Shown here: in pieces, positions 8,823 to 54,297 of the stretch
Numbering within the stretch: position 1 is the stretch's first letter
How the letters are laid out: each line of letters opens with the position of its first letter
Assembly: GCF_900089495.1 (NCBI RefSeq)
Contig: NZ_LT605203.1
Location: 4,557,944-4,621,943, forward strand
DNA length: 64,000 nucleotides
Direction: 5' to 3'
Source: Thiomonas sp. X19
Lineage (GTDB): Bacteria; Pseudomonadota; Gammaproteobacteria; Burkholderiales; Burkholderiaceae_C
The notes under the pieces: model-generated
The model's database searches: none
What the model was told of the DNA's origin: nothing
The model's input: only the letters and a program-made list of their open reading frames with translations
Program-made: the position numbers and the translations under genes

Positions 8823-8962
8823 GCCAAGCCCCCTGTTTCTGAGCATTCAAAACGCACGACGTGGGAGCCCACGGGCAATAGCCGGTGCTCCACATGTGCG
8901 CGAACCGCATTGCGCAGCGCAATCGCCTCAAACTGTGCACCGTGCTGCTTGAGCGACGCCAG
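8819..8962 (-). CDS. Possible short ORF with non-ATG start
   Basis: Between the leader element and the lipoprotein gene an open frame encodes about 47 residues ending VRAHVEHRLLPVGSHVVRFE plus CSETGGLA, with protein-like composition. Its TGA overlaps the lipoprotein ATG, as in coupled genes. No ATG or GTG stands near the leader; a CTG at 8962, inside the leader hairpin, is the first candidate. Direct evidence of translation is lacking. Confidence 0.3.
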   Translation of the reverse strand: MASLKQHGAQFEAIALRNAVRAHVEHRLLPVGSHVVRFECSETGGLA

Positions 8963-9001
8963 ACGTTGGCGTCTGACCCTGACTCTGCGAGCGTGGGACA
9001 A
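8955..9001 (-). promoter_or_regulatory. Transfer leader element, copy 1 (minus strand)
   Basis: Read on the minus strand, the core at 9001-8974 is a variant of GTCCCCACCCCGCAGAGTCA. It is followed by a hairpin with arms GACGCCA and TGGCGTC around the loop ACGTC (8973-8955). It faces the lipoprotein/VirB1 operon. Arm sequence differs from copies 5, 7 and 9 but pairing is kept. Confidence 0.7.
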
Positions 9002-9010
9002 CTGCCCCAT

Positions 9011-9034
9011 GACCCCACCGCGCAGAGTCCCCAG
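9011..9034 (+). promoter_or_regulatory. Transfer leader element, copy 2, degenerate
   Basis: The core reads GACCCCACCGCGCAGAGTCC and then diverges; no hairpin follows. It stands 28 bp before the topB start and back to back with copy 1, so the two elements serve the divergent operons. It is the weakest of the nine copies. Confidence 0.5.
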
Positions 9035-9061
9035 AGAACCACCCCTTCCTGGAGACACAGC

Positions 9062-11233
9062 ATGCGCCTCATCATTGCCGAAAAACCCTCTGTCGCCCAA
9101 GCCATCGCCAGCGTGCTGGGCGGAGCCAGAAAAGCGGACGGCTACATCGATTGCCCAAGCCTCAAAACTCGCGTGACCTGGTGCTTCGGCCATCTGCTGG
9201 AGCAGGCCAAGCCCGAGGACTATGTGGACGGCGGCAGAGTGACGGCATCCCACCTGCCGGTCATCCCCAGCGCATGGAAGCTCTCACCTCGCGATGGCGG
9301 CGCGGGCAAGCAGATCAAGGTGATTCGGGACTTGCTCAAAGACACGACCGAAGTCGTCAACGCGGGCGACGCCGACCGTGAAGGGCAGTTGCTGGTCGAT
9401 GAAGTCTTGCTGTTCCTCAACTGGAAGGGCAAGACCCTGCGCCTGTGGCTGTCCAGCCTGGATGACGAGAGCGTGCGGCGCGCGCTGGCGACCCTCAAGA
9501 ACAACGACACCTTGCGCCCCCTCTACGAATCCGCTCTGGCCCGCCAGCGTGCCGACTGGCTCATGGGCATGAACGCCTCCATCGCCCTGAGCCGCAATCT
9601 GCAAGCCCGCGGGGTGCAGGGGGCCTGGAGCGTGGGCCGCGTGCAGACCCCCACCCTGGCGCTGCTCGTTGACCGCCAGCGCGAGATCGAGCACTTCAAG
9701 CCGCGCGATCACTACCAGGTGCAGGCAGCCCTTGATGGCGACATCCGCGCCCTCTGGCAGATCCCCGAAGACCTGCAGACCGACGACGGCCTGCTGCTGG
9801 ACAAGTCCGCCGCCGAAGCCTGCGCTAAGACGGTGCAGGGCCAGCGTGCGACCATCGCCGCTTTCACCCGCAAGGCGGGCGAGCGTCAGGCACCGATGCC
9901 CTATGCCCTCAGCACCCTGCAGAAAACCGCCAGCAGCCGACTGGGACTCTCCGCCAAGGACACGCTGGCCGCGGCCCAGGAACTCTACGAAGCCAAGCTC
10001 GCCACCTACCCGCGCTCCGACTGTCCCTGGCTCCCCATCGAAATGCACGCCGCTGCCGCGCAGATCATTCGCGCCCTGGGCGCAGCGGACATCGCGGGCA
10101 TCGACCCTGAACGCCGCCATCCCGCCTGGAATACCGCCAAGGTGGAAGCACATCATGGCATCATTCCTACAGGCCGCAGCCTCGCCGAGGTCTCGGGCCT
10201 GTCCGAGAACGCGAAAAGGGTGTACAGCCTGCTGCGCGAGTCTTACCTGCGCCTGTTCATGCCGCCGGAAACCTTCGAGACCCGCGAAGCCCTGTTCACC
10301 TTTCCCGGTGCAGAGCGCTTCAAGGCCAGCGCCCGCATCGTGCAGGAACCTGGATGGACGCAGCTCGGCCAAGCTGACAACAGCGCGGAAGGCGGCGAGC
10401 ACGAACTGCCCGCCAGGCTGCTCATCCTGACCGAGGGCCAGCAACTGGCCTGCGAGTCCGCGCAAGTGCAGGCCAAGCGCACCAGTCCGCCAAAACCCTA
10501 CACCGACGGCACGCTCATCGCCGCCATGACCGGCGTGCACAAGCTGGTCACCGACCCGAAGCTCAAAGCCCGTCTCAAAGAGACCTCCGGCCTAGGCACG
10601 GAGGCGACGCGCGCGTCGATGATCGAAGTGCTGATCGCCCGCGAATACGCTGAGCGCAAAAAGAAGGAGATTCACCCGACCGACCGCGGCGTGCAGTTGA
10701 TCGACATGCTGCGCAAGGTCGCCCCTGAGCTGGCCGATCCCGGCACGACCGCCCTACAGGAAGATGCCCTGGCAGCAGTGGCCAGCGCCCGGGCGACGTT
10801 CAACGCCTTCATGACGGAACAGATCGACAGCGTGCGCGAGTCTACCCAAAAGCTGCTGGTCGGCCAGCTCGGCGCAGCGCCCGCCATTCTCCACGCCTGC
10901 CCCGCCTGCGGCGGCAGCCGATGCGCCAAACGCACCAGCAAGGCCGCGGCGACCTATCACCGCTGCCTGGATTGCGACGCCGCATTCGGCGACGACGGCG
11001 GCAAACCCGGCAAGCGATTCGAGGACAAGCCGCAGGGCGATGGCGCAGCAAGCAAAGCGCCCGCATCCGGCCCGAAGTGCCCGACCTGCAAGAAGTCCAC
11101 CTTCAGGAATGAAACCAAGACCGGCAAGGCTTACTACCGCTGCGGCGGGTGCAAGGGGGCTTGGTGGCCGGATCGCAAGGATGAAGGCAAGCTTGGGGCG
11201 AAGTGGGAAGACAAGGCGGGAGCCCGAGCGTAA
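9062..11233 (+). CDS. topB: DNA topoisomerase III (TraE/TopB type)
   Basis: The 723-residue product has a Toprim domain (MRLIIAEKPSVAQAIASVLG; acidic DADREG at 103-108), the type IA core with catalytic tyrosine in KLATYPRSD (Tyr about 316), and two C-terminal zinc-ribbon modules (CPACGGSRC...CLDC and CPTCKKSTF...CGGC). RP4 TraE is a homologous enzyme. It decatenates and relaxes DNA by single-strand passage, useful when single-stranded transfer intermediates are processed. GGAG lies 8 bases before the ATG at 9062. A diverged broken second copy of the C-terminal third lies at 18.9 kb. Confidence 0.95.
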   Translation: MRLIIAEKPSVAQAIASVLGGARKADGYIDCPSLKTRVTWCFGHLLEQAKPEDYVDGGRVTASHLPVIPSAWKLSPRDGGAGKQIKVIRDLLKDTTEVVNAGDADREGQLLVDEVLLFLNWKGKTLRLWLSSLDDESVRRALATLKNNDTLRPLYESALARQRADWLMGMNASIALSRNLQARGVQGAWSVGRVQTPTLALLVDRQREIEHFKPRDHYQVQAALDGDIRALWQIPEDLQTDDGLLLDKSAAEACAKTVQGQRATIAAFTRKAGERQAPMPYALSTLQKTASSRLGLSAKDTLAAAQELYEAKLATYPRSDCPWLPIEMHAAAAQIIRALGAADIAGIDPERRHPAWNTAKVEAHHGIIPTGRSLAEVSGLSENAKRVYSLLRESYLRLFMPPETFETREALFTFPGAERFKASARIVQEPGWTQLGQADNSAEGGEHELPARLLILTEGQQLACESAQVQAKRTSPPKPYTDGTLIAAMTGVHKLVTDPKLKARLKETSGLGTEATRASMIEVLIAREYAERKKKEIHPTDRGVQLIDMLRKVAPELADPGTTALQEDALAAVASARATFNAFMTEQIDSVRESTQKLLVGQLGAAPAILHACPACGGSRCAKRTSKAAATYHRCLDCDAAFGDDGGKPGKRFEDKPQGDGAASKAPASGPKCPTCKKSTFRNETKTGKAYYRCGGCKGAWWPDRKDEGKLGAKWEDKAGARA

Positions 11234-11249
11234 AACCTAGAATCGACCT

Positions 11250-12077
11250 ATGTCCCAATCACTAGCCGCGCTGCTAAAGCTCATTGACACCCGCAAGGCG
11301 CTGCTCGACGCCCGTCGCCCGCTGCCGCCAGCAACGCTCGCTAGTCTGCATGACAAACTGGCGCTGGAGTGGACCTACAACTCCAACGCCATCGAGGGGA
11401 ACACCCTGACGCTGCGTGAGACGCAGGTCGTGCTCGAAGGCATTACCGTGGGCGGCAAATCGCTGAGGGAGCACCTCGAAGCGATCAACCATCAGGAAGC
11501 CATCGGGGCGGTGGAATCGCTCATCCAGTCGGGCAAGCAGATGACCGAATGGGACGTGCGCGGCATCCACCAGATCGTACTCAAAGGCATAGCCCCGGAG
11601 TATGCCGGGCGCTACCGCACAGAAAACGTCGCCATCGTAGGGGCGAGTCATACGCCGCCCGCCGCAGTGCAAGTGCCCGAGCGCATGACCGAACTGATGC
11701 GGTGGCTCAACAGCACGCCATCGGGTGGCCTGCATCCCGTGGCACGCGCTGCGGAATTTCATACCCGCTTCGTCGAAATCCACCCGTTCGTTGACGGCAA
11801 TGGCCGCACCGGAAGACTGCTGATGAATGCCGTGCTCATGCAGGATGGGTATCCCCCAGCGGTGATTCGCGCAGAGAACCGGCCCGCCTACTACGACGCG
11901 CTTGATCGCGCCTGCGTGACCAGAGACTATGGCGACATCACGCGCCTAGTGGCTCAAGAGACGATACGTTCCCTAGACAGCTATCTTGAAGTCATTGAAG
12001 GCAGGCAGCCAGGACGAGAACCAGAGCAGACCCAGCGGCGCGTGAAACGACCAGGGCGGACAGGTGTCGAGCGTTAA
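11250..12077 (+). CDS. Fic-domain protein with N-terminal inhibitory motif
   Basis: The Fic motif HPFVDGNGRTGR starts at residue 178, complete for AMP transfer. An N-terminal SNAIEGN (45-51) matches the [S/T]xxxE[G/N] inhibitory helix whose glutamate blocks ATP binding, so this is a self-inhibited class II Fic protein. A C-terminal basic tail follows. Such proteins AMPylate host targets such as gyrase or chaperones. TAGAAT at 11238-11243 ends 6 bases before the ATG and no ribosome site is seen, so the message may be leaderless. A truncated relative follows the second topB copy at 19.46 kb, so topB-fic is a stable pair. Confidence 0.9.
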   Translation: MSQSLAALLKLIDTRKALLDARRPLPPATLASLHDKLALEWTYNSNAIEGNTLTLRETQVVLEGITVGGKSLREHLEAINHQEAIGAVESLIQSGKQMTEWDVRGIHQIVLKGIAPEYAGRYRTENVAIVGASHTPPAAVQVPERMTELMRWLNSTPSGGLHPVARAAEFHTRFVEIHPFVDGNGRTGRLLMNAVLMQDGYPPAVIRAENRPAYYDALDRACVTRDYGDITRLVAQETIRSLDSYLEVIEGRQPGREPEQTQRRVKRPGRTGVER

Positions 12078-12136
12078 CCATCATTCCGGCAGAAATGCCA
12101 TGGGGAAGTGGGAGGAGCGGAAGTAAAATCAACGAC

Positions 12137-12204
12137 ATGAATGAACGTGCCCGCCACCTGGAGGGTGCACGTCAGCACATGGCCGCCAAGGCTGAAAAAC
12201 TTCA
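12137..12204 (+). pseudogene. Start of an element gene cut by cargo 1
   Basis: An ATG at 12137 opens MNERARHLEGARQHMAAKAE plus KLHHW, which looks like a genuine helical protein start. TAAAAT ends 7 bases before the ATG, like the fic promoter. The frame then runs into the antisense of the FAD oxidoreductase gene at about 12200, so the true continuation has been lost. This marks the left edge of the 12.2-18.9 kb insertion. The identity of the original gene is unknown. Confidence 0.4.
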
Positions 12205-13617
12205 TCATTGGAACGTGTCATATCGGTCTGTCACACGCAGGACCTTGCCCGGATTCATGATGTTGCGGGGGTCCAGGGCCTTCTTGATCGCAACCATGGC
12301 GTGCATTGAAGGGCCACGTTCGAGTTCAAGAAAATCGAGCTTTCCGTATCCAATGCCATGCTCCCCCGTGCATGTCCCACCGAGTCTGATGGCGCGCCGC
12401 ATCAAGCGGGCGTTGAGTTCCGCTGCGCGCGTCATTTCATCGGCATCGTCGGGGTTGACAACGATGCACAGGTGGAAATTGCCATCACCAACATGTCCGC
12501 ACATCGGCGCAGTCAACCCCAACTCCAGAACGTCTTGCCGAGCAGCAACTGCGGCATCACCGAGCATGGAGATCGGTACGCACGCATCGGTTGGTATGCC
12601 ATGACATCCTGGACGCAGCGCTAGCGCTGCCCACCACACATCGTGCCGCGCTTGCCAGAGTTGGGAGCGAGCCTCGGGCGTCGTCGCCCAAGCGTAGCCA
12701 GAGCCTCCGTTGTCGCGCGCGATGGCCTCAACCATCTCGACTTGTTCTGCGAGGCTCGCGGGGGAACCTTGAAACTCGAAAAACAACGTTGGCACCTCAG
12801 GCAGATTAAGCTTCGAATAGCGATTGCAGGCTGCAACTTGCAGTTCATCCAGAAATTCGATGCGGCCAATGGGGATACCTGTCTGGATCACCTGGATGAC
12901 TGTGTCGATGGCTGTCTGCAGACTGGGGAAGCCACATCGTGCCGCACTCACGCCTTCTGGCAGTGGATGCAGTCTGAGCGTCAACTCGGTGATGATCCCC
13001 AAAGTCCCTTCAGCACCTGTAAACAGGCGGGTCAAGTCATAGCCTGCTGCAGATTTCCTGGCGCGCCCACCCGTTTCGATAATCTCTCCACTGGACATCA
13101 CGACCTGAAGTGACATCACGTTGTCACGCATCGTGCCATAGCGCACCGCATTCGTTCCTGACGCGCGCGTCGACGCCATGCCGCCAAGAGAGGCATCCGC
13201 GCCCGGATCGATTGGAAAGTGAAGCCCGGTGCCATGCAATTCAGCGTTCAACTGTTTTCGCGTCACTCCGGCCTGTACTCGGCAATCGAAGTCTGCGGTG
13301 TTGACTTCGAGGATGGCATTCATCTGCGACAGATCAATGCATATGCCGCCTGAGATCGCCCCGATTCCTCCCTCACAGGATGTTCCCGTACCGAATGGAA
13401 TGACAGGAACTGAAGATGCGTGGCAGATATCGACAACTGCTGCGACATCCTGCGTGGACTTCGCAAAGACGACGGCATCAGGTGGGCATGTCGGATGAAA
13501 GGAGACATCTTTTCCGTGCTGATCGCGAATGGTTTGACCCAGTGCACATCGCTCACCGAATAATTCCCTCAGTTGAGTGATGATCTGCGCCTTCTCGCTT
13601 TTCGCCACGGCAGTCAT
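12205..13617 (-). CDS. FAD-linked D-2-hydroxyacid dehydrogenase (GlcD/D-LDH family)
   Basis: The 470-residue product has an FAD_binding_4 domain (VPVIPFGTGTSCEGGIGAIS, PIDPGADASLGGMASTRASG, RARKSAAGYDLTRLFTGAEG) and the FAD-oxidase C domain ending with GGTCTGEHGIGYGKLDFLEL and DPRNIMNPGKV. Such enzymes oxidise D-lactate, glycolate or similar 2-hydroxyacids, passing electrons to quinone or cytochrome. It is the last gene of a minus-strand set, 100 bp after the MFS exporter. Substrate unknown. Confidence 0.88.
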   Translation of the reverse strand: MTAVAKSEKAQIITQLRELFGERCALGQTIRDQHGKDVSFHPTCPPDAVVFAKSTQDVAAVVDICHASSVPVIPFGTGTSCEGGIGAISGGICIDLSQMNAILEVNTADFDCRVQAGVTRKQLNAELHGTGLHFPIDPGADASLGGMASTRASGTNAVRYGTMRDNVMSLQVVMSSGEIIETGGRARKSAAGYDLTRLFTGAEGTLGIITELTLRLHPLPEGVSAARCGFPSLQTAIDTVIQVIQTGIPIGRIEFLDELQVAACNRYSKLNLPEVPTLFFEFQGSPASLAEQVEMVEAIARDNGGSGYAWATTPEARSQLWQARHDVWWAALALRPGCHGIPTDACVPISMLGDAAVAARQDVLELGLTAPMCGHVGDGNFHLCIVVNPDDADEMTRAAELNARLMRRAIRLGGTCTGEHGIGYGKLDFLELERGPSMHAMVAIKKALDPRNIMNPGKVLRVTDRYDTFQ

Positions 13618-13718
13618 TTGACGTCCCCCTGGGGTTGGTTAATCAAGCACATTGTGGACCGGTCCATTCGTCACATTTCAGGCGCAGATCCTGGGTATTG
13701 AATTTCTTGAAGCACACA

Positions 13719-15107: not shown

Positions 15108-15116
15108 ACGGGTCAG

Positions 15117-15899
15117 TCAATGCGTCGCCGCACGCTGCGCAACCAAGGTGGTCATCGGCCAAAGCAAGGTGCAACTACCGCCCCCATCTTGCACTGTCAG
15201 GAAGTCCTGAACTCCCTCAAGACAATCCTCGTCCGAATACTCCGGCTTGGCAGAAAACAGCAGACGTAAAAACTTGCCCAGATGCTGAGAATCGGCAAAT
15301 CGCCATCGCGCGGTGTTGTCGTAGAACGCGGGGCAGCTCCAGCCCGTCAAACCACAAATTGTGGTGGCGAAATCTTGGGACAAAAATGACACCTCATGGC
15401 CGGTCACGCAGGAGCGAGCGATGAAGCTATCGAAATAGCGCGCCAATGTCGTGCCCGCAAAGATGTCGGTGATCACCAACCGACCGCCAAGTTTGGTGTG
15501 CGCGGCGAATCGCTCAAACGCCCGCATTTTGTCGCGGACATGATGGATGGCGCCGCGGCTCCAGACCGCGTCGAAACCCTTGAACGCCAGTTCCATATCC
15601 TCTGCTGCCTGGTGGTGGATACGGATATTGCGCGGCAGAATTTCGGCAAGCCCTTGCGTTTGCTCTGACGCGGGATCGACGATGTCCAGGCGGCCGTTCG
15701 CACCAAGCGTTCTGGCAATTTCGCGGCTGAAGTACCCTGTTCCGGCACCAACCTCCACAATGGATTCCCCTGGTCTTGGTTGAAGCAAGTCGTGCATTAA
15801 TTTCAAATCGTGTAGCCACGCGTCGGGATACAGACGCAGGGCATCCTGATAGTTGGTCGAGCGCTCACCACTGAATTCGGCATCGGTGTCGGCATACAT
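15117..15899 (-). CDS. Class I SAM-dependent methyltransferase
   Basis: Motif I IVEVGAGTGYFSREIA and the later SRGAIHHVRDKMRAFERFA and GGRLVITDIFAGT identify a UbiE/COQ5-like methyltransferase. I start at ATG 15899 because GGAG lies 8 bases upstream; a longer frame would add a hydrophobic leader without support. The C-terminal third (YDNTARWRFADSQHLGKFLR...) is specific and may bind the substrate. It sits between an orphan periplasmic binding protein and an exporter. Substrate unknown. Confidence 0.82.
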   Translation of the reverse strand: MYADTDAEFSGERSTNYQDALRLYPDAWLHDLKLMHDLLQPRPGESIVEVGAGTGYFSREIARTLGANGRLDIVDPASEQTQGLAEILPRNIRIHHQAAEDMELAFKGFDAVWSRGAIHHVRDKMRAFERFAAHTKLGGRLVITDIFAGTTLARYFDSFIARSCVTGHEVSFLSQDFATTICGLTGWSCPAFYDNTARWRFADSQHLGKFLRLLFSAKPEYSDEDCLEGVQDFLTVQDGGGSCTLLWPMTTLVAQRAATH

Positions 15900-15974
15900 G
15901 GCAATGATCTCCAAAATTGACAAAAGGCTGAAAACCGCGATCAACAACCGCATCCCATTGCGGCCGTGCCCGTT

Positions 15975-17120: not shown

Positions 17121-17333
17121 GGTGAGACTCCTTCTCGGGAAATGCAGGCAAGGTGCGACTGACTCGGTTCTGGCTCAACTGGTACGACGAGTCAATGTCG
17201 CGCGTTGTCGCTACTGCGGTCAGGCGTAGCTGCCATCTGACGAATCGATACTATTACCAGTATGCGCTAAGATTAAAATCAAATGGTTGCAACTATGGGG
17301 TTATGCAGCAAGTATTTTTCCAATAGTGCCGTC

Positions 17334-17822: not shown

Positions 17823-17848
17823 ATGGGACGAGGTGTGGCACTGCAGCC

Positions 17849-18034: not shown

Positions 18035-18105
18035 GGGCAGATTCTCTCGCGTGCGCGCGCGAGAAGGGGGAATTGCCCGGATCGACAAACGCTTGGGCTT
18101 GGGGG

Positions 18106-24862: not shown

Positions 24863-25385
24863 GGTCAGGGGCCGTCAGCTTCTGAATCATCTGCTGCTGC
24901 ATCTGCACCGTCGGCTCCAACTGGCGCTTACCCCACCACGAACCGACAAACAGCGCGACGGCGATGACCACGCCCAGGAGCGCCATCGAGGCCAGAGAAA
25001 TCGGCTCCCGCAAGGCGCTGGTCACCGCCTCTCTCACCGCCGTCCTGACCACCCCCTCATCCACCTTCGCGCTCACCGGCCGCGCCGCCACCTCCTGCAA
25101 GCCGCGCAAGCCGGCGATCACCGGCGTCAAATCCACAGGCGATGCCTCCGCCTTGCCCGACTCCAGTACCGCCGCCTTCACTGCAGCCAGCACATCCGCC
25201 CTCGGCGTACTGCGCGCCCAGCCCCAAGCAAACAGGGTGACGTGCGGTGCGTTGCTCGGGTCGTCCACCTCGAAGCCGGTGCGCTGCAGGATGCCCAGCA
25301 GCGAACGGACATCCTTCCACTCGTCCTCGGTCGGCAGCCGCCCGAGCACATCCATGAACACCTGTTCCGAATTGCTGTAGGCCAT
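24840..25385 (-). CDS. traM: TraM-like conjugation protein
   Basis: The product has a soluble N-terminal part (FMDVLGRLPTEDEWKDVRSL) and one membrane helix near residues 134-150 (LASMALLGVVIAVALFVGSW), with a short polar tail. Position directly after the ParA-like traL, in the order traK-traL-traM, corresponds to the RP4 leader-region genes beside oriT. The ATG at 25385 overlaps the traL stop. Function in RP4 is in transfer efficiency; sequence similarity alone would not prove the name. Confidence 0.6.
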   Translation of the reverse strand: MAYSNSEQVFMDVLGRLPTEDEWKDVRSLLGILQRTGFEVDDPSNAPHVTLFAWGWARSTPRADVLAAVKAAVLESGKAEASPVDLTPVIAGLRGLQEVAARPVSAKVDEGVVRTAVREAVTSALREPISLASMALLGVVIAVALFVGSWWGKRQLEPTVQMQQQMIQKLTAPDHAPRAGK

Positions 25386-26143
25386 CACACCCCCTCCACA
25401 TCGACGGACTCGATCGGCTCCAGCGCCGCCCCGGCCCGCTTGAGCCAGGACTGCAGGGCCAGCCGGTAGCCATACGGCAGCGGCCGACCGTCGATGCCCG
25501 ACGCCAGCACCTCATGGAACGGACGCCGCCCGATCATCACCGCGAGCTGATCGTTCATCTCCGGCAATTGGGTCTCGGCCCAGGCGCCTTCCTCCACCAG
25601 GCGCTGCCGCAGCGGGTCGATCTGCCAGAGCACGAACTTGTCCGCCGAACCGAAGAACATGTTCTTCACCACGATGCCCGCCTCATAGCGCGCGGGCATA
25701 GTGCGCAGGCGGTAATCCAGCGCCCGGATGCTCTCCTGAGTGCGGCTGAGCAGCCACACCGGCACCGCATTGGCCTCGCGCAGCACCTCGCTCACGATGT
25801 GGATCGACCCGTCGAATGCACGGGTGCCGATCTGCGCCGGCATATTGATGATGATGCGGTACTCCGCCGTCTGGGCGGCAGCGCCGAGCATGGCCAGCTT
25901 CGTGCCCAGATCGATCCACCCGCTCTCTGTGGAAAGATCGAGCAGCGCCGTGCTGGCGATGCCGCCGCCAGGCCGCAGCCCGCCTTCGCCGCACACGTCC
26001 GGGTTGGAGAGATCGGCGTCATAGACCACCAGCCGGGGGCGCCGCTCCTCCTCTTGGGACAAGAAATGATGAACCAGCGCACGGGCGGCCAGGCTCTTGC
26101 CGACGCCGCCTTTGTCGCCATCGATGATGAACGTCTTGAGCAT
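25385..26143 (-). CDS. traL: ParA/MinD-like ATPase, TraL type
   Basis: From ATG 26143 the protein reads MLKTFIIDGDKGGVGKSLAA, a deviant Walker A of the ParA/MinD group, followed by VVYDADLSNPDVCGEGG and IIINMPAQIGTRA. RP4 TraL is such an ATPase beside oriT. It could position the transfer apparatus or the element. It is also the only ParA-like gene available to work with the ParB at 4.8 kb, 20 kb away. It overlaps traM by 1 bp and follows traK by 74 bp. Confidence 0.85.
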   Translation of the reverse strand: MLKTFIIDGDKGGVGKSLAARALVHHFLSQEEERRPRLVVYDADLSNPDVCGEGGLRPGGGIASTALLDLSTESGWIDLGTKLAMLGAAAQTAEYRIIINMPAQIGTRAFDGSIHIVSEVLREANAVPVWLLSRTQESIRALDYRLRTMPARYEAGIVVKNMFFGSADKFVLWQIDPLRQRLVEEGAWAETQLPEMNDQLAVMIGRRPFHEVLASGIDGRPLPYGYRLALQSWLKRAGAALEPIESVDVEGV

Positions 26144-26217
26144 GATGGAAAACCTTTCAGTAAGGATCAAAAAAAGACCGGGCAGCGCCCCGGTGGCGCC
26201 CGACGGCAGTCGGGGAA

Positions 26218-26847: not shown

Positions 26848-26892
26848 GCGCGCCTTTCACAGCGCCCTGCCCTGACTCTGCAGGGTGGGGAC
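26848..26892 (-). promoter_or_regulatory. Transfer leader element, copy 3 (minus strand)
   Basis: Read on the minus strand the core at 26892-26868 is GTCCCCACCCTGCAGAGTCA plus GGGCA, nearly identical to the other copies. The following GGGCGC...GGCGCGC segment pairs only weakly (4 bp GCGC arms). It stands 16 bp before the traK start codon. Confidence 0.65.
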
Positions 26893-27242: not shown

Positions 27243-27266
27243 GTCCCCACCGCGCAGAGTCACGGC
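27243..27266 (+). promoter_or_regulatory. Transfer leader element, copy 4
   Basis: The core GTCCCCACCGCGCAGAGTCA continues as CGGC and runs directly into the traJ start codon, with no hairpin. The same core-to-ATG fusion is seen in copy 6. This suggests that the core acts close to the initiation region. Confidence 0.65.
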
Positions 27267-39158: not shown

Positions 39159-39203
39159 GTCCCCACCCCGCAGAGTCAGGGCAGGGCGCCAACGTTTGGC
39201 GCC
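39159..39203 (+). promoter_or_regulatory. Transfer leader element, copy 5
   Basis: The core GTCCCCACCCCGCAGAGTCA plus GGGCA (39159-39183) is followed by a perfect 8-bp hairpin GGCGCCAA/TTGGCGCC with loop CGT (39185-39203). The start codon of the trbB operon follows 17 bp later. This is the most complete copy. Confidence 0.75.
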
Positions 39204-44404: not shown

Positions 44405-44428
44405 GTCCCCACCCTGCAGAGTCAGGGC
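44405..44428 (+). promoter_or_regulatory. Transfer leader element, copy 6
   Basis: The core GTCCCCACCCTGCAGAGTCA continues as GGGC and then the ATG of the Toprim gene, with no hairpin between. Same layout as copy 4 before traJ. Confidence 0.7.
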
Positions 44429-46957: not shown

Positions 46958-46964
46958 GCCTCCT

Positions 46965-47015
46965 GTCCCCACGCCGCAGAGTCAGGACAGGGCGTCTCGC
47001 TTCGACGCCCTGTCC
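46965..47015 (+). promoter_or_regulatory. Transfer leader element, copy 7, long hairpin
   Basis: The core GTCCCCACGCCGCAGAGTCA (46965-46984) runs into a perfect 12-bp stem GGACAGGGCGTC/GACGCCCTGTCC with loop TCGCTTC (46985-47015). No T-tract follows, so it is not a classical terminator. The RBS and ATG of the next gene begin after the stem. Confidence 0.75.
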
Positions 47016-47036
47016 GATCCATCACAGGAGTCCGTC

Positions 47037-47189
47037 ATGCAAACCCCGCAAACCCCCGAAACCCCAGCAGTCGCCCCTGAAGGCGACACGGCTGAATTCG
47101 AGTCCCTCTCCGTCCCCGATCGAGCCACCGCCGAAGCGCTCGGCGCCGACATCGAAGACGACACGGACTTGGAGGCCGATCATGGCTGA
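47037..47189 (+). CDS. Acidic microprotein, 50 aa
   Basis: ATG 47037 has AGGAG 8 bases upstream. The product, starting MQTPQTPETPAVAPEGDTAE, is strongly acidic and ends DIEDDTDLEADHG. The stop overlaps the ArdC-like gene by 8 bp. An acidic small protein next to an antirestriction-like gene might be a DNA mimic or a regulator, but this is speculation. Confidence 0.55.
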   Translation: MQTPQTPETPAVAPEGDTAEFESLSVPDRATAEALGADIEDDTDLEADHG

Positions 47190-49851
47190 GACCAAACCCG
47201 ACCAAGCCAAACCGCCGCGCGACCTGCGCCAGGAACTCACCGACAAACTCGTCCAGACGCTGGAGCAGGGCCAGATTCCTTGGAACAAGCCCTGGGCCGC
47301 GCTTCGAAGCGGCTTGCCGCGCAATATGGAAACCGGCAGGGAGTACCGCGGCGGCAACCGCCTCATGCTGATGCTGGAGCAGGCCGACCGCGGCTACACC
47401 GATCCGCGCTACGGCACCGTCAAGCAGGTCAACGCCCTGGGCGGACGCGTCAAGAAGGGCGAACACGGCCTACCCGTAGAACTGTGGAAAGAGCAGCCCT
47501 TCTATCAGCGCAAGGACATCAGCGTGACGCTCAACGGCATGCGTGTGAAGGTGTTCGGCGAAAAGAATGGCAGTGCGGAGGTCGGCATGCCGACCGACAA
47601 GGACGCCACCCTGCGCGTCAAGACCACCGATCTGCGCGTGCAGCGCCACACCGAACAAGGCCCCCAACATCTGAGCTGGGACAAGGCGCGCGAGCTCGAC
47701 ACCTGGACTTCTCGCGTCCACACCGTGTTCAACGTCGCGCAATGCGAGGGGCTGAAGATCGAGCCTCTGGCCCCTGCGCCGAACTTCGATCCGGTGGCGC
47801 GGGGCGAATCTCTCAAGGCCGCCATGGCGCGCGATGGACTCAGCTACGGCGAGCATCCCGAACACGCCTTCTATTCGCCCAAGCGCGACCAGGTGGTACT
47901 CCCCCCGCGTGGCGCCTTCAATTCCGAGCTGGGCAACGAGGAGGGCGCAGCGCGCTACTACGGCACCTTGCTGCATGAGATCGGCCATGCCACCGGCGCA
48001 GCACACCGTCTGAACCGCGAAGGCATCACCGGCGGTCATCGCTTCGGCTCGGAGGGCTATGCCAAAGAGGAACTGCGCGCCGAGATGTTCAGCCTATTCG
48101 CCGCCGCCCAGACCGGCATTCCGCATGACGCCGAACGCCACGCCGCCTACGTCCAAGATTGGGCCAAGGTGCTCAAGAACGACAAGAACGAAATCTTCCG
48201 GGCTGCCGCGGAAGCGGGCAAGGCGGTGGACTACGTGCTCGCCAAAGAGCAGTCCCTGCAGGTCACGCAGGAACGCCAGGCCTCAGTCGAGGTGGCGGCG
48301 CGGGCGGCTGACTCTGCACCACTGCCCGAGGCAATTCCTCGCGATGCGCGGTCGGTGTTCTGGCGCAAGGTCGAGAATGTCGAGCACATTTGCGAGGAGG
48401 GCGGTGACCGCGACGCAAACAAAATCCGCGTGACCGACGCGCAGAATCTGTCGGTCGCCGAATATGACCAGTTCACGCGCAATTTTTTCGAGCCGCAACC
48501 GTGGCTTGCGGGCAAGGGTGGCGTGGAGAACGGCGACACGCGCCTGGTCGTCGAGGTGACGGCAAAGGACCGCCAGACCCTGCATATCGATCCGCAAGGG
48601 TATGACTACGCCCGGTATGTCGGCATCCCGGAAGCGGCTGTGGGCCGCGTGCTCGGCGCCCGGTCGTTTGTCACGGCAGAACGCGCGCCGGAGCAAGACA
48701 ATCTCAAAGCTGTCGAGATTGACGCGCCCGCGCATTGGGGCAGCGCCCTGGTCAACCGCGACGAAAGCGGGCTGGGCGAGAGCGAAGCCGCCTGCGCCAA
48801 GGATTGGGTCGAAAAACAGGGCGTCGGTTATCCGGTGTCCATGTCCGATCCCTTCATGGGCCGGCATGAAGGCTTGCTCACCGAGATGGCAACCTATTCT
48901 TTCCTGGTGCCGCAAAAAGACATCGGCCCGAGCGTGGACGGCGGGCTGAATCCAGAGGCAGGCAAACCCACTGGAAAACCGCCGACCCTGCATGACGCCT
49001 TGGAAGCCAACGGCTGGAAATCCACCCCTCATGGGTCTTATGAAAAGACCTTCCTGCTGGACAAGGACAGGAACAAGGGCGGCGAGTTCACGCGCGGCCA
49101 GGGAACTGTCGAGAAAATCATGACCGCCAAAAGATGGGCCGCCGGGTTTGTCATCCAGCATGGATGGGATGACATCCCCGTTCCCGTGAAGGCCGGTCTC
49201 TCACCAACGCAGGCTGTTGCGGAACTCGATCAAGCGGCAAAACAGCGACTGCGATCAGAGCATGCCGATCTGGGCATCACCGCCATTCGTGGCAAGGGTG
49301 AGCCAGACCCGGCAGCAGAGCTGAAGGCGACTTGGACTGAGAAGGGCGTCTCCGCTGAACGCCAGGCCGAGATGCTTGCGCAGATCGAGGTGAAAGCGCA
49401 ACCCGGCGCGCGGGTTGGCCCGTTCATCGTCGGCGGGCATGCTGAGCAGCCCAGCGCCTACGAAAAGGCCGTCCAGACCTTCGTGAGCGGCGGCGGCAAT
49501 GAGAAGGATGCCCGCCGCATCCTGGACGATGTGTTGCTGAGCGATTTCAGCGACAAAAACCTGCCCAAGGCGCTTGAATTCCACGGCTTCGCCAAGCCGC
49601 ACGAGGCCGACAAGCTCGCCACGGCCATCATCACCGAAGAAAACCGCAAGGTTCTCGCCAAGGAAGACCGCAAGGCCTCTGAGTACCAGGCGATGACGCA
49701 GGCTGAGCAGGGGACAGGCAAGGACAAGTCCGGAGCGTCTGATCGATCCGCCGAGAAACTGGCCGAACCGCCCGAGGCTGACAAACCTGAACGCCCGGCT
49801 CGCCCTCGTCTGCGCCAGACCCACCGCAAGGCCGCGGCGATGGAACGCTGA
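47182..49851 (+). CDS. ArdC-like antirestriction protein with zincin domain
   Basis: Residues about 10-130 match the ArdC N-terminal ssDNA-binding domain (LVQTLEQGQIPWNKPWAALR, REYRGGNRLMLMLEQADRGY, VKQVNALGGRVKKGEHGLPV), followed by a metallopeptidase-like zincin region with LLHEIGHATGAAHRLNRE and AKEELRAEMFSLF. The long C-terminal part (to 889) has polyvalent-protein modules. ArdC proteins protect incoming single-stranded DNA from restriction. The gene follows the acidic microprotein and precedes traG by 141 bp. Confidence 0.82.
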   Translation: MAETKPDQAKPPRDLRQELTDKLVQTLEQGQIPWNKPWAALRSGLPRNMETGREYRGGNRLMLMLEQADRGYTDPRYGTVKQVNALGGRVKKGEHGLPVELWKEQPFYQRKDISVTLNGMRVKVFGEKNGSAEVGMPTDKDATLRVKTTDLRVQRHTEQGPQHLSWDKARELDTWTSRVHTVFNVAQCEGLKIEPLAPAPNFDPVARGESLKAAMARDGLSYGEHPEHAFYSPKRDQVVLPPRGAFNSELGNEEGAARYYGTLLHEIGHATGAAHRLNREGITGGHRFGSEGYAKEELRAEMFSLFAAAQTGIPHDAERHAAYVQDWAKVLKNDKNEIFRAAAEAGKAVDYVLAKEQSLQVTQERQASVEVAARAADSAPLPEAIPRDARSVFWRKVENVEHICEEGGDRDANKIRVTDAQNLSVAEYDQFTRNFFEPQPWLAGKGGVENGDTRLVVEVTAKDRQTLHIDPQGYDYARYVGIPEAAVGRVLGARSFVTAERAPEQDNLKAVEIDAPAHWGSALVNRDESGLGESEAACAKDWVEKQGVGYPVSMSDPFMGRHEGLLTEMATYSFLVPQKDIGPSVDGGLNPEAGKPTGKPPTLHDALEANGWKSTPHGSYEKTFLLDKDRNKGGEFTRGQGTVEKIMTAKRWAAGFVIQHGWDDIPVPVKAGLSPTQAVAELDQAAKQRLRSEHADLGITAIRGKGEPDPAAELKATWTEKGVSAERQAEMLAQIEVKAQPGARVGPFIVGGHAEQPSAYEKAVQTFVSGGGNEKDARRILDDVLLSDFSDKNLPKALEFHGFAKPHEADKLATAIITEENRKVLAKEDRKASEYQAMTQAEQGTGKDKSGASDRSAEKLAEPPEADKPERPARPRLRQTHRKAAAMER

Positions 49852-49992
49852 ACCCAGCAGCCCAGCGGCAGGTGGCGCAAAACAGCCGCAGCGCGCGACC
49901 GGATTCCTTCCCCCTGTTGGCGATCCTTGCCGGGGCGCGCGCCGCCTGGCCCACGTCACGGGCCGCCCCCAACTTTTCGAGGCAGCACGACC

Positions 49993-51924
49993 ATGAGCAA
50001 CGCATCCGAAGCCATCTACCACATCCCCAAGGCGCAGAAAGACATCACCCGCTTCGTCTGGACGGGTCTGGGCCTGTTCATCATCATCGTGCTGCTGTCC
50101 ACCTGGGCCGCCACCGAATACGCCGCCTGGGGTTTCGGTTTCACCCCGGCGCTGGGCGCGCCCATGATCCCGCCGTGGCTCTACGCCCCCTATGACATCC
50201 TGATCTGGACCTTCAAATACAACCGCATCGAATACGGCCAGTCCGTGCTAGACATCCTGGAACGCGCCCACCTCATCATGGGCGTCGGCGGTTTCCTCTC
50301 CCTGGTGCTGCCCGTGGGCATCGCCTACCGACGTTCGCGCAAAGCTGACGCCGAACGCAATGACCTGCATGGCTCGGCCCACTGGGCCGCCGCCCCGGAA
50401 GTCGCCGCCGCCGGCATCCTGCCCGACGACAAGAACAAGGGCGGGGTGCTGTTTGGCGCCTGGACCGACGGCCAGCAGGTGCGCTACCTGCGGCACAAAG
50501 GGCCGGAACACATGATGGTGTTCGCGCCCACCCGCTCCGGCAAGGGCGTGGGCATCGTCATCCCCACCTTGCTGAACTGGGATCAGTCCGTCCTGGTACA
50601 TGACATCAAGGGCGAGAACTGGGCACTGACCAGCGGCTTTCGCGAGAAGGTGCTGGGCCATCGCGCCATCAAGTTCGACCCGACATCCCCCGATTCCGCC
50701 CGCTTCAACCCCTTGCAGGAAATCCGCATGGACGGCAATCTGGTCAAGGACGTGCAGAACATCGCCACCATGATCGTCGATCCCGACGGCAAGGGCCTGA
50801 ACGACCACTGGGCCAAGACCGGCTTCGATCTCATGACCGGGGTGGTGCTGTTCGTCCTGCTCTATTGGGACGGCAAAGGCCCGGACGCCCGCTTGCGCTG
50901 CCTGCACACCGTGCAGGCCATCCTCTCTGACGGCGGCCCGATCCGCGAGATCGCCAAAGAAGCAGCCGAGCGCAACCAGGCCGAAGACGCTGAGCCGATG
51001 GAAGGCTCGCAGGCCGTGATGACCTATATCCGCGATGTCGCCCTGGAAAAAGGCGCGCAGAGCGCCGACACGCACGCCCGCACCGGCTGGGCCGCCGTGG
51101 CGCAGGCCAGCCAGTCCTTTCTGAACAAGGCGCCGAACGAAGCCTCGGGCGTGCTGTCCACCGCGCTGTCCTTTCTCTCGCTCTACCGCGATCCCATCGT
51201 CGCCGACAACACCCGCGTCTCCGACTTCACCCTGGAAAGCATCATGGGCGGCGCCGACGTGGACGGCAAGCCCGAAACCAGGAAGACGGCGCTGTATCTT
51301 GTGGTGCCCCCCAGCGACAAGGACCGCCTCAAGCCCCTGCTGCGTCTGGTCATCAATCAGGTGGTGCGGCGGCTGACCGAAGGCATGGACTTCGACGTCG
51401 GCGGGGCGAGCAAGAGCCGCTACCCGCACAAACTCCTGCTGCTGCTCGACGAATTCCCCAGCCTGGGCAAACTCGACATCTTCCAGGAGGCGCTGGCCTT
51501 CATCGCGGGCTACGGCCTCAAGGCGCTGCTCATCGTGCAGGACTTGAGCCAGCTCTTTGCCGCCTACGGCAAGGATGAGTCCATCATCAGCAACTGCCAC
51601 ATCCGCGTGGCCTACGCCCCGAACAAGATCGAGACGGCCGAGCTGCTCTCCAAGATGGCCGGTCAGGCTACTGTCAGTCACACCCAGCGGCAATACAGCG
51701 GCAACCGGCTGGCCGTGGTGCTGCAGAACGTCAACACCAACGAGCAGATCGTGCAGCGCCCGCTGCTCACCCCCGACGAGTGCATGCGCCTGCCGCCCGA
51801 CGATGAACTGGTCTTCGTCGCAGGGCATGCCCCCGTCTACTGCCAGAAGATCAAGTATTACCAGGACGCGGCGCTGGCTGAGCGCATCAAGCTCGGGGCA
51901 GCGGCGAGCACGGGCAGGCAATGA
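49993..51924 (+). CDS. traG: TraG/VirD4 coupling protein
   Basis: Two N-terminal membrane segments (VWTGLGLFIIIVLLSTWAAT; LIMGVGGFLSLVLPVGIAYR) precede the TraG ATPase with FAPTRSGKGVGIVIPTLLNW (Walker A, about 177-196) and LLLLLDEFPSLGKLDIFQEA (Walker B, about 480). It connects the relaxosome with the type IV secretion channel and pumps DNA. 643 residues, normal for TraG. ATG 49993 chosen because the longer frame starts inside a non-coding spacer. Confidence 0.95.
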   Translation: MSNASEAIYHIPKAQKDITRFVWTGLGLFIIIVLLSTWAATEYAAWGFGFTPALGAPMIPPWLYAPYDILIWTFKYNRIEYGQSVLDILERAHLIMGVGGFLSLVLPVGIAYRRSRKADAERNDLHGSAHWAAAPEVAAAGILPDDKNKGGVLFGAWTDGQQVRYLRHKGPEHMMVFAPTRSGKGVGIVIPTLLNWDQSVLVHDIKGENWALTSGFREKVLGHRAIKFDPTSPDSARFNPLQEIRMDGNLVKDVQNIATMIVDPDGKGLNDHWAKTGFDLMTGVVLFVLLYWDGKGPDARLRCLHTVQAILSDGGPIREIAKEAAERNQAEDAEPMEGSQAVMTYIRDVALEKGAQSADTHARTGWAAVAQASQSFLNKAPNEASGVLSTALSFLSLYRDPIVADNTRVSDFTLESIMGGADVDGKPETRKTALYLVVPPSDKDRLKPLLRLVINQVVRRLTEGMDFDVGGASKSRYPHKLLLLLDEFPSLGKLDIFQEALAFIAGYGLKALLIVQDLSQLFAAYGKDESIISNCHIRVAYAPNKIETAELLSKMAGQATVSHTQRQYSGNRLAVVLQNVNTNEQIVQRPLLTPDECMRLPPDDELVFVAGHAPVYCQKIKYYQDAALAERIKLGAAASTGRQ

Positions 51925-51926
51925 AA

Positions 51927-51942
51927 GTCCAATAAAATGGAC
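51927..51942. promoter_or_regulatory. Palindrome before hipB, probable operator
   Basis: GTCCA (51927-51931) and TGGAC (51938-51942) form an inverted repeat around ATAAAA in an AT-rich stretch 23 bp before hipB, inside an otherwise GC-rich region. HipB-type proteins repress their own operon from such sites. Confidence 0.5.
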
Positions 51943-51964
51943 AAAATAAAAGAAATACAGCATC

Positions 51965-52261
51965 ATGTCCAAGATGAAGGACATCAAAGACCCTATGCTT
52001 CCTGCGCTCAACGCCCAGGAGCTTGGGCACGCCCTGCGCGCAGAGCGCAAGGCGCGCGGCCTGAGCCAGGCGGCGCTTGCGCAAACCATCGGCAGAAAGC
52101 GCCAGACCATCGTCGCCCTGGAGGCTGGGCGCAACGTCAGCCTCTATACGCTGTTCGCCGCGCTGGCCGCCCTGGGCAAGGGGTTGCTGATCCAGGATGC
52201 CCGGCTCGACCCGGCTCGGCTGCAGGAGCTGTTCCCCGATGATGAAGATCAAGGAACTTGA
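51965..52261 (+). CDS. hipB: HipB-like XRE antitoxin
   Basis: The 98-residue protein has an XRE helix-turn-helix (LGHALRAERKARGLSQAALA, QTIGRKRQTIVALEAGRNVS, LYTLFAALAALG). It overlaps hipA by 23 bp. It would repress the operon and hold HipA inactive. Confidence 0.85.
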   Translation: MSKMKDIKDPMLPALNAQELGHALRAERKARGLSQAALAQTIGRKRQTIVALEAGRNVSLYTLFAALAALGKGLLIQDARLDPARLQELFPDDEDQGT

Positions 52262-53597
52262 AGTCTCCACCCCACAGGGGATGGCGGGGCCACTGCGCCG
52301 CGAGTCGCAGTACGTCTTCAACTACGGCCGCGGCGTTGACCCCTCCTGCGAGATTTCTCTGACCATGCCGCTGCGTGCGCAGAGCTATGCCGGGAACGTG
52401 TTGCCGCCCATTTTCACGATGAACCGGCCCGAGGGCTGGCTGGCGCAGGAACTCGTGCGCCGCATGGCCAGGCTCGGCCCGATGGACGACATGCGCTTGC
52501 TGGCCATCACCGGTGAGCACCAGATCGGCAGGCTGAATTTCAAAGAGCCCGGACAGACTGATATCAGGCGCCAGGCCCGGATCGGGCTGCGCGAGATTCT
52601 GTCCGCCGGATCGTCCGCCGAGGTCTTCGCCTTTCTGGTCGATCAATACATCGATTCAGGGATTTCCGGTGTCCAGCCCAAGATCATGGCCCCCGATGCC
52701 GACAGGCTGCCGCCCCCGGCCGACCGGACGACCGCCAGCGTGGCCGATCTGATCGTCAAGTCAGGCGGCGCGCAATATCCCGATCTGGCCGTCAATGAAT
52801 TTCTCTGCATGAGCGCCGCGCGTCATGCCGGGCTGCAAACGCCCGAATTCTGGTTGTCCAATGATCGCCAGCTCTTTGTCATGAAGCGCTTTGACATCAC
52901 ACCAGAGGGCAGCCGACTGGGTTTTGAGGACATGGCCGTGCTCATGGGCAAGCCAGCCGACCCCTATGGCCGCTATAAGTATGAGGGCAGCTACGAGAAC
53001 ATCGCCCGCGCGCTGCATCTGTATTGCGGCGCCGAGACGCCCCAGTCCCTGGGCCGACTGTTCGCGAGCTTGGCCCTGTCCATGATGGTGCGCAACGGCG
53101 ATGCGCACCTCAAGAACTTCGGCGTGCTGTACGACCATCCGCACGCCATGCAGCCGCCCCGGCTTGCGCCCGTCTACGACGTGGTGACGACCACGGCCTA
53201 CAGCTATGCCGACACCCGCACTGGAAGAGAACTGACCGACCGCACCCTGGCGCTCAAACTCGCAGGGTCGAAGTCCTACCCCTCCCGCGAGGAACTGATG
53301 GACTTCGGGCGGGTGATCTGCAACGTCAATCGCCCTGGTGAAGTCATCGAACGCATCGCCGAAGGCATGACGCGGGCGCTTCAAGAGCACGGCGAGCTGC
53401 TGTCCAGCCCCATGCGGGACCTCATTCACCGGGAGTGGGATGCCGGAAGAGTGGGCTACGCGCCCATCGTGTCCAGGACGGCGCAGTCCCTCTCTCCAAT
53501 CGAGAGAGCAAGCCCAGACGCCCCCGCCGATGACAGTGGTACGAAGGCGCAACCCGCCCACCGCCGAAGGAGCACGCGCCGCGACCTGAACCGCTGA
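52239..53597 (+). CDS. hipA: HipA-like serine/threonine kinase toxin
   Basis: Landmarks of HipA: ISGVQPKIM (P-loop/autophosphorylation region), LAVNEFLCMSAARHAGLQTP, FVMKRFDI, and the catalytic MVRNGDAHLKNFGVLYDHP (Asp about 287) followed by PVYDVVTT. HipA kinases phosphorylate aminoacyl-tRNA synthetases and stop growth. The C-terminal 40 residues are a basic unrelated tail. It sits between traG and traF, so loss of the transfer region would be punished: addiction of the transfer block is likely. Confidence 0.88.
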   Translation: MMKIKELEVSTPQGMAGPLRRESQYVFNYGRGVDPSCEISLTMPLRAQSYAGNVLPPIFTMNRPEGWLAQELVRRMARLGPMDDMRLLAITGEHQIGRLNFKEPGQTDIRRQARIGLREILSAGSSAEVFAFLVDQYIDSGISGVQPKIMAPDADRLPPPADRTTASVADLIVKSGGAQYPDLAVNEFLCMSAARHAGLQTPEFWLSNDRQLFVMKRFDITPEGSRLGFEDMAVLMGKPADPYGRYKYEGSYENIARALHLYCGAETPQSLGRLFASLALSMMVRNGDAHLKNFGVLYDHPHAMQPPRLAPVYDVVTTTAYSYADTRTGRELTDRTLALKLAGSKSYPSREELMDFGRVICNVNRPGEVIERIAEGMTRALQEHGELLSSPMRDLIHREWDAGRVGYAPIVSRTAQSLSPIERASPDAPADDSGTKAQPAHRRRSTRRDLNR

Positions 53598-53604
53598 GCT
53601 TCCC

Positions 53605-53651
53605 GGCCCCACCCCGCAGAGTCAGGGCAATCACCGCGCACCTCCGCGCGG
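53605..53651 (+). promoter_or_regulatory. Transfer leader element, copy 8
   Basis: The core GGCCCCACCCCGCAGAGTCA plus GGGCA is followed by a 6-bp hairpin CCGCGC/GCGCGG (53634-53639 and 53646-53651). The arms differ from all other copies but still pair. The traF start follows 12 bp later with GGAG between. Confidence 0.7.
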
Positions 53652-53663
53652 CAGGAGCCCTGA

Positions 53664-54245
53664 ATGAGCATCCCCTACGCCATCGAACAAGCGCTCGCCC
53701 TTCAGCGGAAGCCGCGCTGGAATCGCCTGCTCATTCCCATCGCGGCGCTGGCCGCGACCGCCCTGGCCATCAACGTCCTGTGGTGGTGCGGCTGGCGGGT
53801 CAACTGGACGGAAAGCGAGCCGCTCGGCCTATACCGCCTGCTGCCCGTCACTGCAGATTCCCGCATCATCCGGAGCGAACGCGCCGAGTTCTGCCCGCCG
53901 CCAACCATCACGCCGCAGGCTTTCCCCTTCTACATGAAAGGCGACTGTCCAGGCGGCGGCATGCCGATGTTCAAACAGATTGTCGGTCTGCCCGGCGACC
54001 GCATCACCGTCACCCCGCAAGCCGTGACCGTCAACGGCAAGGCGCTTGCCCACAGCGGCCAGCTTCCCGGCTCCCCGAGTTTTCCACGGGTCCATCTCCC
54101 GTACCAGCACGGCACATTCACCCTAGGCCCCGATCAGTTCTGGGTGTATGGCAGCGGCGCGCGCCCCGCGCTGGCCGCCCAGAGCTTCGACAGCCGCTAC
54201 TGGGGGCCGATCACCCGAAATGACATTCGCCGCATCACCCGCTGA
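53664..54245 (+). CDS. traF: TraF, S26-type conjugation peptidase
   Basis: One membrane helix (IPIAALAATALAINVLWWCG) precedes a signal-peptidase-like fold with TESEPLGLYRLLP (catalytic serine region) and KQIVGLPGDRITVTPQAVTV (lysine region), ending with PDQFWVYGSGARP. TraF cyclises or trims pilin TrbC in IncP elements. 193 residues, normal. A leader element stands before it and another after it. Confidence 0.92.
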   Translation: MSIPYAIEQALALQRKPRWNRLLIPIAALAATALAINVLWWCGWRVNWTESEPLGLYRLLPVTADSRIIRSERAEFCPPPTITPQAFPFYMKGDCPGGGMPMFKQIVGLPGDRITVTPQAVTVNGKALAHSGQLPGSPSFPRVHLPYQHGTFTLGPDQFWVYGSGARPALAAQSFDSRYWGPITRNDIRRITR

Positions 54246-54252
54246 TGCAGTT

Positions 54253-54297
54253 GTCCCCGCCCCGCAGAGTCAGGGCAGGGCGCCAACGTCTGGCGCC
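54253..54297 (+). promoter_or_regulatory. Transfer leader element, copy 9
   Basis: The core GTCCCCGCCCCGCAGAGTCA plus GGGCA (54253-54277) and a 7-bp hairpin GGCGCCA/TGGCGCC with loop ACGTC (54279-54297). It lies only 8 bp after the traF stop and precedes trbC, so it also divides the traF and trb transcripts. Confidence 0.75.

Follow-up and report, generated by a model that had tools for sequence, protein, structure and literature searches.

A directional 24-nucleotide box upstream of the transfer operons of a Thiomonas conjugative element, a candidate start signal of one transfer regulon

RESULTS

Location and number of box copies

The subject of this analysis is a 64,000-nucleotide (nt) stretch of Thiomonas sp. 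X19 DNA (contig NZ_LT605203.1, positions 4,557,944 to 4,621,943), referred to as the window. It carries a chromosomal conjugative element of the P type, whose genes include virB1, topB, traK with its operon, a NikA-like traJ, the MobP relaxase gene traI, trbB, a Toprim/LPD7 primase gene, ardC, traG, the signal peptidase gene traF, trbC, and more trb genes. An initial annotation of the window had reported nine copies of a short core upstream of these genes, and all nine cores were confirmed at their positions. Each core is part of a 24-nt box. Coordinates below are those of the window, and the A following the box is numbered as putative +1.

The virB1 box, the weakest, lies on the minus strand (8976..8999; putative +1 at 8975) and diverges from the topB box on the plus strand (9011..9034; putative +1 at 9035, ATG at 9062), with 11 nt between the two. 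The traK operon box is on the minus strand (26869..26892; putative +1 at 26868). All others are on the plus strand: those of traJ-traI (27243..27266; ATG at putative +1, 27267), orf79-trbB (39159..39182; putative +1 at 39183), the primase gene (44405..44428; ATG at putative +1, 44429), ardC-traG (46965..46988; putative +1 at 46989, ATG at 47037), traF (53605..53628; putative +1 at 53629), and the trbC operon (54253..54276; putative +1 at 54277). The copies thus precede transfer genes or operons, as had been claimed, with the refinement that the copy of the trbB unit first meets a 79-amino-acid open reading frame (orf79) and then trbB. The claim that cargo genes lack the motif also held: it stands before many transfer operons and nowhere in cargo.

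One copy matched the core without mismatches, six had one mismatch, the topB copy (9011+) had three, and the virB1 copy (8980-) had four; the next best matches in the window had six. With up to three mismatches, 8 matches were observed, compared with 0.02 expected from shuffled sequences. A genome-wide pattern scan allowing two mismatches returned nine matches. Eight are in the window, where only the virB1 copy was missed, and the remaining match is a tenth copy, located upstream of trbF at C3:4627108, 5 kb past the window. As a control, the reversed pattern gave no matches in the whole genome. A core model applied to the same genome yielded 10 matches, which were these ten copies, virB1 included, and nothing else. 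By pattern scan and core model, the core was seen in this element alone within the 4.67-Mb genome, with every copy directed into a transfer gene.

The virB1 copy is also the most degenerate, and its putative +1 is 326 nt from the start of the virB1 homologue (window 8649-8975). In the relatives of the element in Thiomonas delicata and in the metagenome-assembled genome (MAG) HSP1.bin20, this distance is about 35 to 43 nt, and an insertion appears to separate virB1 from its box in the window. The ardC, traF, and trbC copies are located within gene series, where the box begins exactly 8 nt after the upstream stop codon ends. This step places the upstream TGA at -34..-32, and this weak TGA is the sole hint of a -35 element.

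Other genes are found between the transfer modules and have no box. They encode an AurF-like oxygenase (61759-62655, minus strand), a HipA-type protein (52197-53597, plus strand), and an AbiEii-type protein (6610-7458, plus strand).

Conservation in related elements

Conservation of the core in related elements, on which the initial annotation had made its proposal depend, was confirmed. Orthologous copies, 57 in total, precede the same genes in eight elements: those of the window, T. delicata (same genus, a close relative of the window element), MAG HSP1.bin20, G244, G402, T. bhubaneswarensis, G049, and G616, the last from another family of the order. Searching a contig collection for the exact 20-nt core pattern retrieved 11 stretches, six from Thiomonas and five from MAGs. 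A sequence-only model matched in 4 of 399 genomes of the order, the genome of the window included, and a second version of the model matched in 9 of 399 genomes of the family, a count that includes the same genome and three single matches. A loose core pattern gave 80 stretches, as raw matches, over viral contigs.

Plasmid matches of the primase, of TraI, and of the protein encoded at 25385-26170 were all below 60% identity, and orf79 and traK had no plasmid matches. For trbB DNA, 1,073 records matched, the listed ones at 64 to 66% identity. In G244, the traK leader (L173 10690-10780) is interrupted by a sequence that recurs elsewhere in that genome (repeated 3-mismatch matches), probably an insertion-sequence end.

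Anatomy of the box

Column statistics were calculated for 31 gene-by-lineage representatives. The box extends from about -24 to -1, and its strongest block is CAGAGT at -12..-7, with counts of C31, A27, G31, A31, G31, and T29. A second block upstream consists of G at -24, CCCAC at -21..-17, and G at -13. Positions -6..-1 are less conserved (0.36 to 0.80 bits), and no column upstream of -24 exceeded 0.48 bits. The core exists in two variants, one close to GTCCCCACCCCGCAGAGT and the other to GGGCCCACCNCGCAGAGT. A quasi-palindromic operator centered on TGCA was considered and rejected, as the symmetry is not kept across copies.

The base at +1 is A in 26 of the 31 representatives and a purine in 29 (1.61 bits), and it is preceded by C or T in 28. 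In eight representatives, the A is dictated by an ATG at +1. When the ATG copies were left out, all members had A at +1 in 13 of 18 gene-by-group sets and a purine there in 16, and all had a pyrimidine at -1 in 13.

Two kinds of putative 5' end

In 15 of the 57 copies, the ATG is located exactly at +1; these copies belong to traJ and the primase gene (six elements each) and to virB1 (three elements). The virB1 leader takes both forms. It contains a hairpin in the window and T. delicata and a weak one with a 4-bp stem in HSP1.bin20, and it is replaced by an ATG at +1, at the same offset, in T. bhubaneswarensis, G049, and G616.

Copies without an ATG at +1 are usually followed by a hairpin at about +3..+21 and then by the ribosome site. 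In the window, hairpins follow the boxes of virB1 (GACGCC/GGCGTC, 8955..8973, minus strand, where an alternative stem in the same stretch scores higher), traK (GCGCT/GGCGC, 26850..26865, minus strand), orf79-trbB (GGCGCCAA/TTGGCGCC, 39185..39203), ardC (a perfect 12-bp hairpin, 46985..47015, whose arm starts at -4), traF (CCGCGC/GCGCGG, 53634..53651), and trbC (GGGCGCCA/TGGCGCCC, 54278..54298), the last four on the plus strand. The topB copy has none, which is the case for three of the four topB copies overall. The reported hairpin downstream of the core was therefore found again, in six of nine copies and not in five, the traK hairpin being the addition; the tenth copy has one as well.

Compared with dinucleotide shuffles, the +1..+40 stretch of the ATG copies was less structured (mean z of +1.1, with 0 of 15 below -1.5), and that of the other 42 copies was more structured (mean z of -1.3). 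Perfect stems were also tested against mononucleotide shuffles, counting distinct stretches only. A significant hairpin in +1..+26 was detected in 27 of 37 distinct non-ATG copies and in none of 13 distinct ATG copies. Control stretches gave 6 of 47 and 6 of 51 upstream and 1 of 34 and 0 of 37 downstream. The outer 5' nucleotide of the hairpin lay at +1..+6 in 31 of 38 distinct hairpin copies, and in one at +16.

The core itself contained a significant stem in only 1 of 45 distinct copies, and Rfam gave no match with an E value up to 1 in the window. The suggestion that the core is a structured RNA was not upheld; the hairpin belongs to the RNA, and the core is a linear motif. A stem closing the core (TGCCGT/ACGGCA at traJ, CTGTCC/GGGCAG elsewhere) was rejected: its register shifts, it is missing in topB, several ardC, and several G616 copies, and the cores do not fold.

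Covariation in the hairpin

For covariation analysis, 16 hairpins were chosen for one register from 34 distinct ones. In this set, 94.8% of cells pair, compared with 32 to 60% in slid controls. Changes on both sides were found in two of six stem pairs, a level reached by 8 of 500 shuffles, and G-U occurred at two pairs. The number of pair types was not unusual (reached by 116 of 500 shuffles), and the control slid by +2 had a higher covariation score than the true register (0.185 versus 0.165). The initial annotation had stated that pairing is kept while sequences differ. Compensatory change is present but modest, given the pair-type count and the +2 control. RNAalifold on the mixed alignment recovered a 4-pair stem only and was less informative than the stem tests.

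A clearer sign than compensatory change is that hairpins of unrelated sequence lie at the same distance before orthologous genes. The ardC hairpin is replaced by lineage, being GGCGTC/GACGCC in the window, CCGTGGCGCG/TGCGCCACGG in HSP1.bin20, G244, and G402, and GGAGCCGGA/TCCGGCTCC in G616, at about equal distance.

A diverged box in a sister element

Five further traF homologues were found elsewhere in the genome. One belongs to a sister element at C3:1.92-1.99 Mb, and the other four (C3:4318770, 2698603, 2302348, and 3319466) probably mark further conjugative elements. The 240 kb fetched around these five homologues contained no box of the window type (model R2). The sister element has a diverged box in a similar layout before six transfer operons: GTTTCCT-N8-ATTNAGG precedes primase, trbC, trbF, traK, traJ, and trbB; the primase copy has ATTTCCC in place of GTTTCCT, and the traJ copy contains an additional base. 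In a matrix derived from the six sites, these scored 25.6 to 29.0, and the next site scored 13.6. At the position 24 nt past the first G of the sister box, all five sites other than that of traJ have a purine, which is A in four of them. The traK, trbB, and trbF copies are followed by stems of 5 to 8 bp starting at +3 or +4, and the primase and trbC copies by imperfect ones. When the two box types were aligned from -24, about half of the positions were common, as read from the printed sequences. One Comamonas plasmid matches the sister trbC region. The sister box suggests that elements coexisting in one genome are controlled through separate channels.

A box copy on an island

An exact consensus box is located in T. 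bhubaneswarensis contig C10 (L176 9760-9783, minus strand) and, with 99.9% identity, in a MAG contig. It precedes a gene whose product shares 77% identity with TraK across 48 residues at its C terminus; the operon continues with a NikA-like gene and a relaxase gene (57% identical to TraI). A DUF3987 protein and tRNA-Pro are encoded nearby, and LuxR/LuxI-type genes follow further along. When 23 protein queries from the window element were searched against 80 kb at this locus, matches were limited to traK, traI, and the LPD7 portion of the primase, and trb, traG, traF, and ardC had no match in these 80 kb. Both a mobilizable island and a decayed element fit this locus. The copy suggests that relaxase-only passengers tap one control channel.

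Searches for known promoter and operator signals

The 95 nt upstream of 37 representatives showed no enrichment of sigma-70-like promoters (mean z of 0.19, standard error of the mean 0.16; 1 of 37 above 2). The sigma-54 promoter pattern TGGCACG-N4-TTGCW (-26..-11) gave 111 weak matches in the window, compared with a shuffle mean of 140, none of them at a box. Allowing up to three mismatches, TTTAGCSGCTAAA, the IncP-1 KorB operator consensus, matched 6 times in the window, compared with 4.6 expected, again never at a box.

DISCUSSION

The box as a start signal

The regulon signal is real and element specific, and its anatomy is unusual and very regular. We consider it probable, at roughly 60%, that the box is a DNA promoter or operator signal of one transfer regulon, producing leaderless or hairpin-capped transcripts and recognized by a putative element-encoded reader. 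Each copy would act at the DNA level as a start signal, that is, a promoter with or without an overlapping operator, and transcription would begin at the A after the box. A factor encoded by the element would recognize the box and switch the tra and trb operons together. At traJ, the primase gene, and some virB1 genes, the AUG would be the first codon of a leaderless transcript. At most others, the hairpin of changing sequence would close the 5' end ahead of the ribosome site and probably stabilize the mRNA.

This reading is based on four observations: the ATG of three unrelated genes lies at exactly the same offset; virB1 exchanges its hairpin leader for an ATG at +1 with the offset unchanged; the purine at +1, mostly A, persists while the neighboring six bases change; and the divergent virB1 and topB boxes are too close together for separate promoters between them. 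The fixed distance to the pyrimidine-A step, the ATG, or the beginning of the hairpin suggests that transcription starts immediately downstream of the core, and a start there is what the initial annotation had named as speaking against a transcribed leader. In excerpts of a study on Burkholderia cenocepacia, a member of the same order, 72 genes are described as starting exactly at the start codon, and the leaderless genes as having a promoter signal where a Shine-Dalgarno sequence would otherwise stand (PMC4603805). That the copies define one transfer regulon, as had been proposed, is strongly supported by the orthologous copies in eight elements, by the absence of the core elsewhere in the genome of the window, and by the copy on the presumably mobilizable island. 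Since the core is restricted to the element in this genome, its reader is probably element specific.

Several observations weigh against a start signal of this kind. As a sigma-70 -10 element, CAGAGT is poor, keeping only A at position 2, A at 4, and T at 6; the -10 consensus given for B. cenocepacia in the same excerpts is TAnAAT (PMC4603805). No -35 hexamer is conserved, with at most 0.35 bits at -36..-30 and weak anchored scores. Scanning 31 proteins, a part of those encoded by the element, with Pfam or NCBIfam revealed no recognizable sigma factor or activator. The pyrimidine at -1 is missing from topB, from trbC of G616, and from some of the ardC and traK copies. The trbB copy of G616 has a C at +1, and according to the alignment, a possible additional stem of this copy extends into -6..-1. 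Only 15 of the 42 non-ATG copies had a z value below -1.5 against dinucleotide shuffles. Six of 38 distinct copies, among them the window ardC copy with its 12-bp hairpin, have a best stem that starts at -2 or -4; of these six, the window virB1 and T. bhubaneswarensis trbC stems are alternative folds. In the ATG copies, the GAG of the core could act as a weak Shine-Dalgarno sequence. The sister element agrees incompletely: just one of five copies tested has a significant stem in the shuffle test, the traJ ATG, directly after the box, lies one base further downstream than its counterpart in the window, and all six copies have NNNATT as the -12..-7 hexamer.

Alternative explanations

The poor -10, the ardC stem at -4, the missing -1 pyrimidines, and the possible Shine-Dalgarno sequence led us to set the start-signal reading no higher and to retain an RNA leader as an unlikely alternative. 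The core would then be transcribed and bound as single-stranded RNA by an element protein, with the hairpin following, for antitermination or translation control. In outline, a linear core with a variable hairpin after it resembles boxA-boxB (NUT); the hairpin is under pairing constraint, G-U pairs included, and in the six copies just mentioned it begins upstream of +1. Given their place in gene series, the ardC, traF, and trbC copies may be transcribed from upstream. Against such a leader, no promoter signal is enriched upstream of the box, and the divergent virB1 and topB boxes leave no intergenic room for one: with 11 nt between them, separate promoters would need the leader or coding region of the other gene. 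Moreover, the core does not fold, a translational operator would need to work at both 0 nt and tens of nt from the ribosome site, and no role in RNA is evident for the pyrimidine-A step or the fixed offset of the ATG.

Less likely still is a repressor-only operator, similar to that of KorA, placed over ordinary weak promoters, so that conservation reflects the repressor and not the polymerase. The RK2 KorA operator overlaps the -10 region of regulated promoters, according to excerpts of PMC11790492, the element encodes S24/CI-like, HTH_17, and ParB-family proteins, and the core is loosely quasi-palindromic, with 76% complementary arms in the traK copy. On the other hand, the motif is directional in every copy, the alignments do not keep the symmetry, and the conserved -10 and -35 hexamers expected of a repressed sigma-70 promoter were not seen. 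Very improbable is an RNA processing site, at which an endonuclease cuts after the core. It would result in the same leaderless and hairpin-capped 5' ends, and Escherichia coli MazF is able to cleave at AUG start codons or directly before them; however, a linear site of about 18 nt would be needed, compared with the three to seven bases given for MazF homologues in excerpts of the same source (PMC3997798). No such nuclease was seen, and a pyrimidine-purine step at the box end fits initiation better.

A bolder version of the start-signal reading, which we regard as speculative and improbable, takes the box to be a dedicated promoter class. A contiguous -24..-7 site would be read by an element-encoded polymerase-specificity factor of an undescribed kind, sigma-like or polymerase remodeling, with at least two diverged specificities present together in a single genome. 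It would set leaderless or hairpin-capped mRNAs and would have been adopted by relaxase-only islands to ride along.

Comparison with known systems

The transcripts of ompA and papA carry stabilizing stem-loops at their 5' termini. The hairpins described here are similar in lying a few nucleotides from the putative 5' end and being free in sequence, and they differ in that topB mostly lacks one. The boxA-boxB arrangement differs in that a start codon can directly follow the box here. IncP-1 plasmids differ in that the box is directional and not palindromic and that the KorB operator consensus is found at no box; a ParB-family protein is present in the element as a point of likeness. Further likeness to the IncP-1 KorA/KorB/TrbA system, as excerpted in PMC11790492, consists of P-type tra and trb genes, a site at several operon promoters, and a KorA site over the -10 region.

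The SetCD/AcaCD systems of SXT/R391 and IncA/C, in the excerpts of PMC4542580, share with the box one element-specific motif before many transfer operons that are split by cargo, as well as promoters with a poor -10 and no conserved -35. Islands answer to the same activator there, which the mobilizable-island reading of the T. bhubaneswarensis locus would parallel (PMC4542580). In contrast, the SetCD/AcaCD motif overlaps the -35 region, and the box covers -24..-1 (PMC4542580). The box works like SetCD/AcaCD and KorA promoter sites, a statement of likeness and not of membership in either. Leaderless bacterial mRNAs in general share the start signal directly upstream of the ATG in place of a Shine-Dalgarno sequence, and the B. 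cenocepacia leaderless genes in the excerpted study use a TA-rich promoter motif, whereas the box genes do not (PMC4603805). We found no promoter work on this group of conjugative elements in the literature searched. For this group, the sequence rule predicts the transcription start, leaderless genes, and members of the transfer regulon.

Candidate regulators

Box DNA makes the missing regulator findable. Neither a SetCD/FlhCD relative nor an N-like or NusG-like protein was present among the 31 proteins scanned. Within the element, an S24/CI-like protein (LexA/CI-like; 2351-3043, minus strand), a small HTH_17 protein (3387..3596, plus strand), and a ParB-family protein (4841..5803, plus strand) are candidate regulators. 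The S24 protein, which was not among the matches in G616, is possibly an SOS-sensitive switch, as in SXT. The HTH_17 protein, a candidate DNA-binding factor, has homologues in G616 and HSP1.bin20, and none was found in the sister element. The ParB-family protein alone matched in all three, G616, HSP1.bin20, and the sister element.

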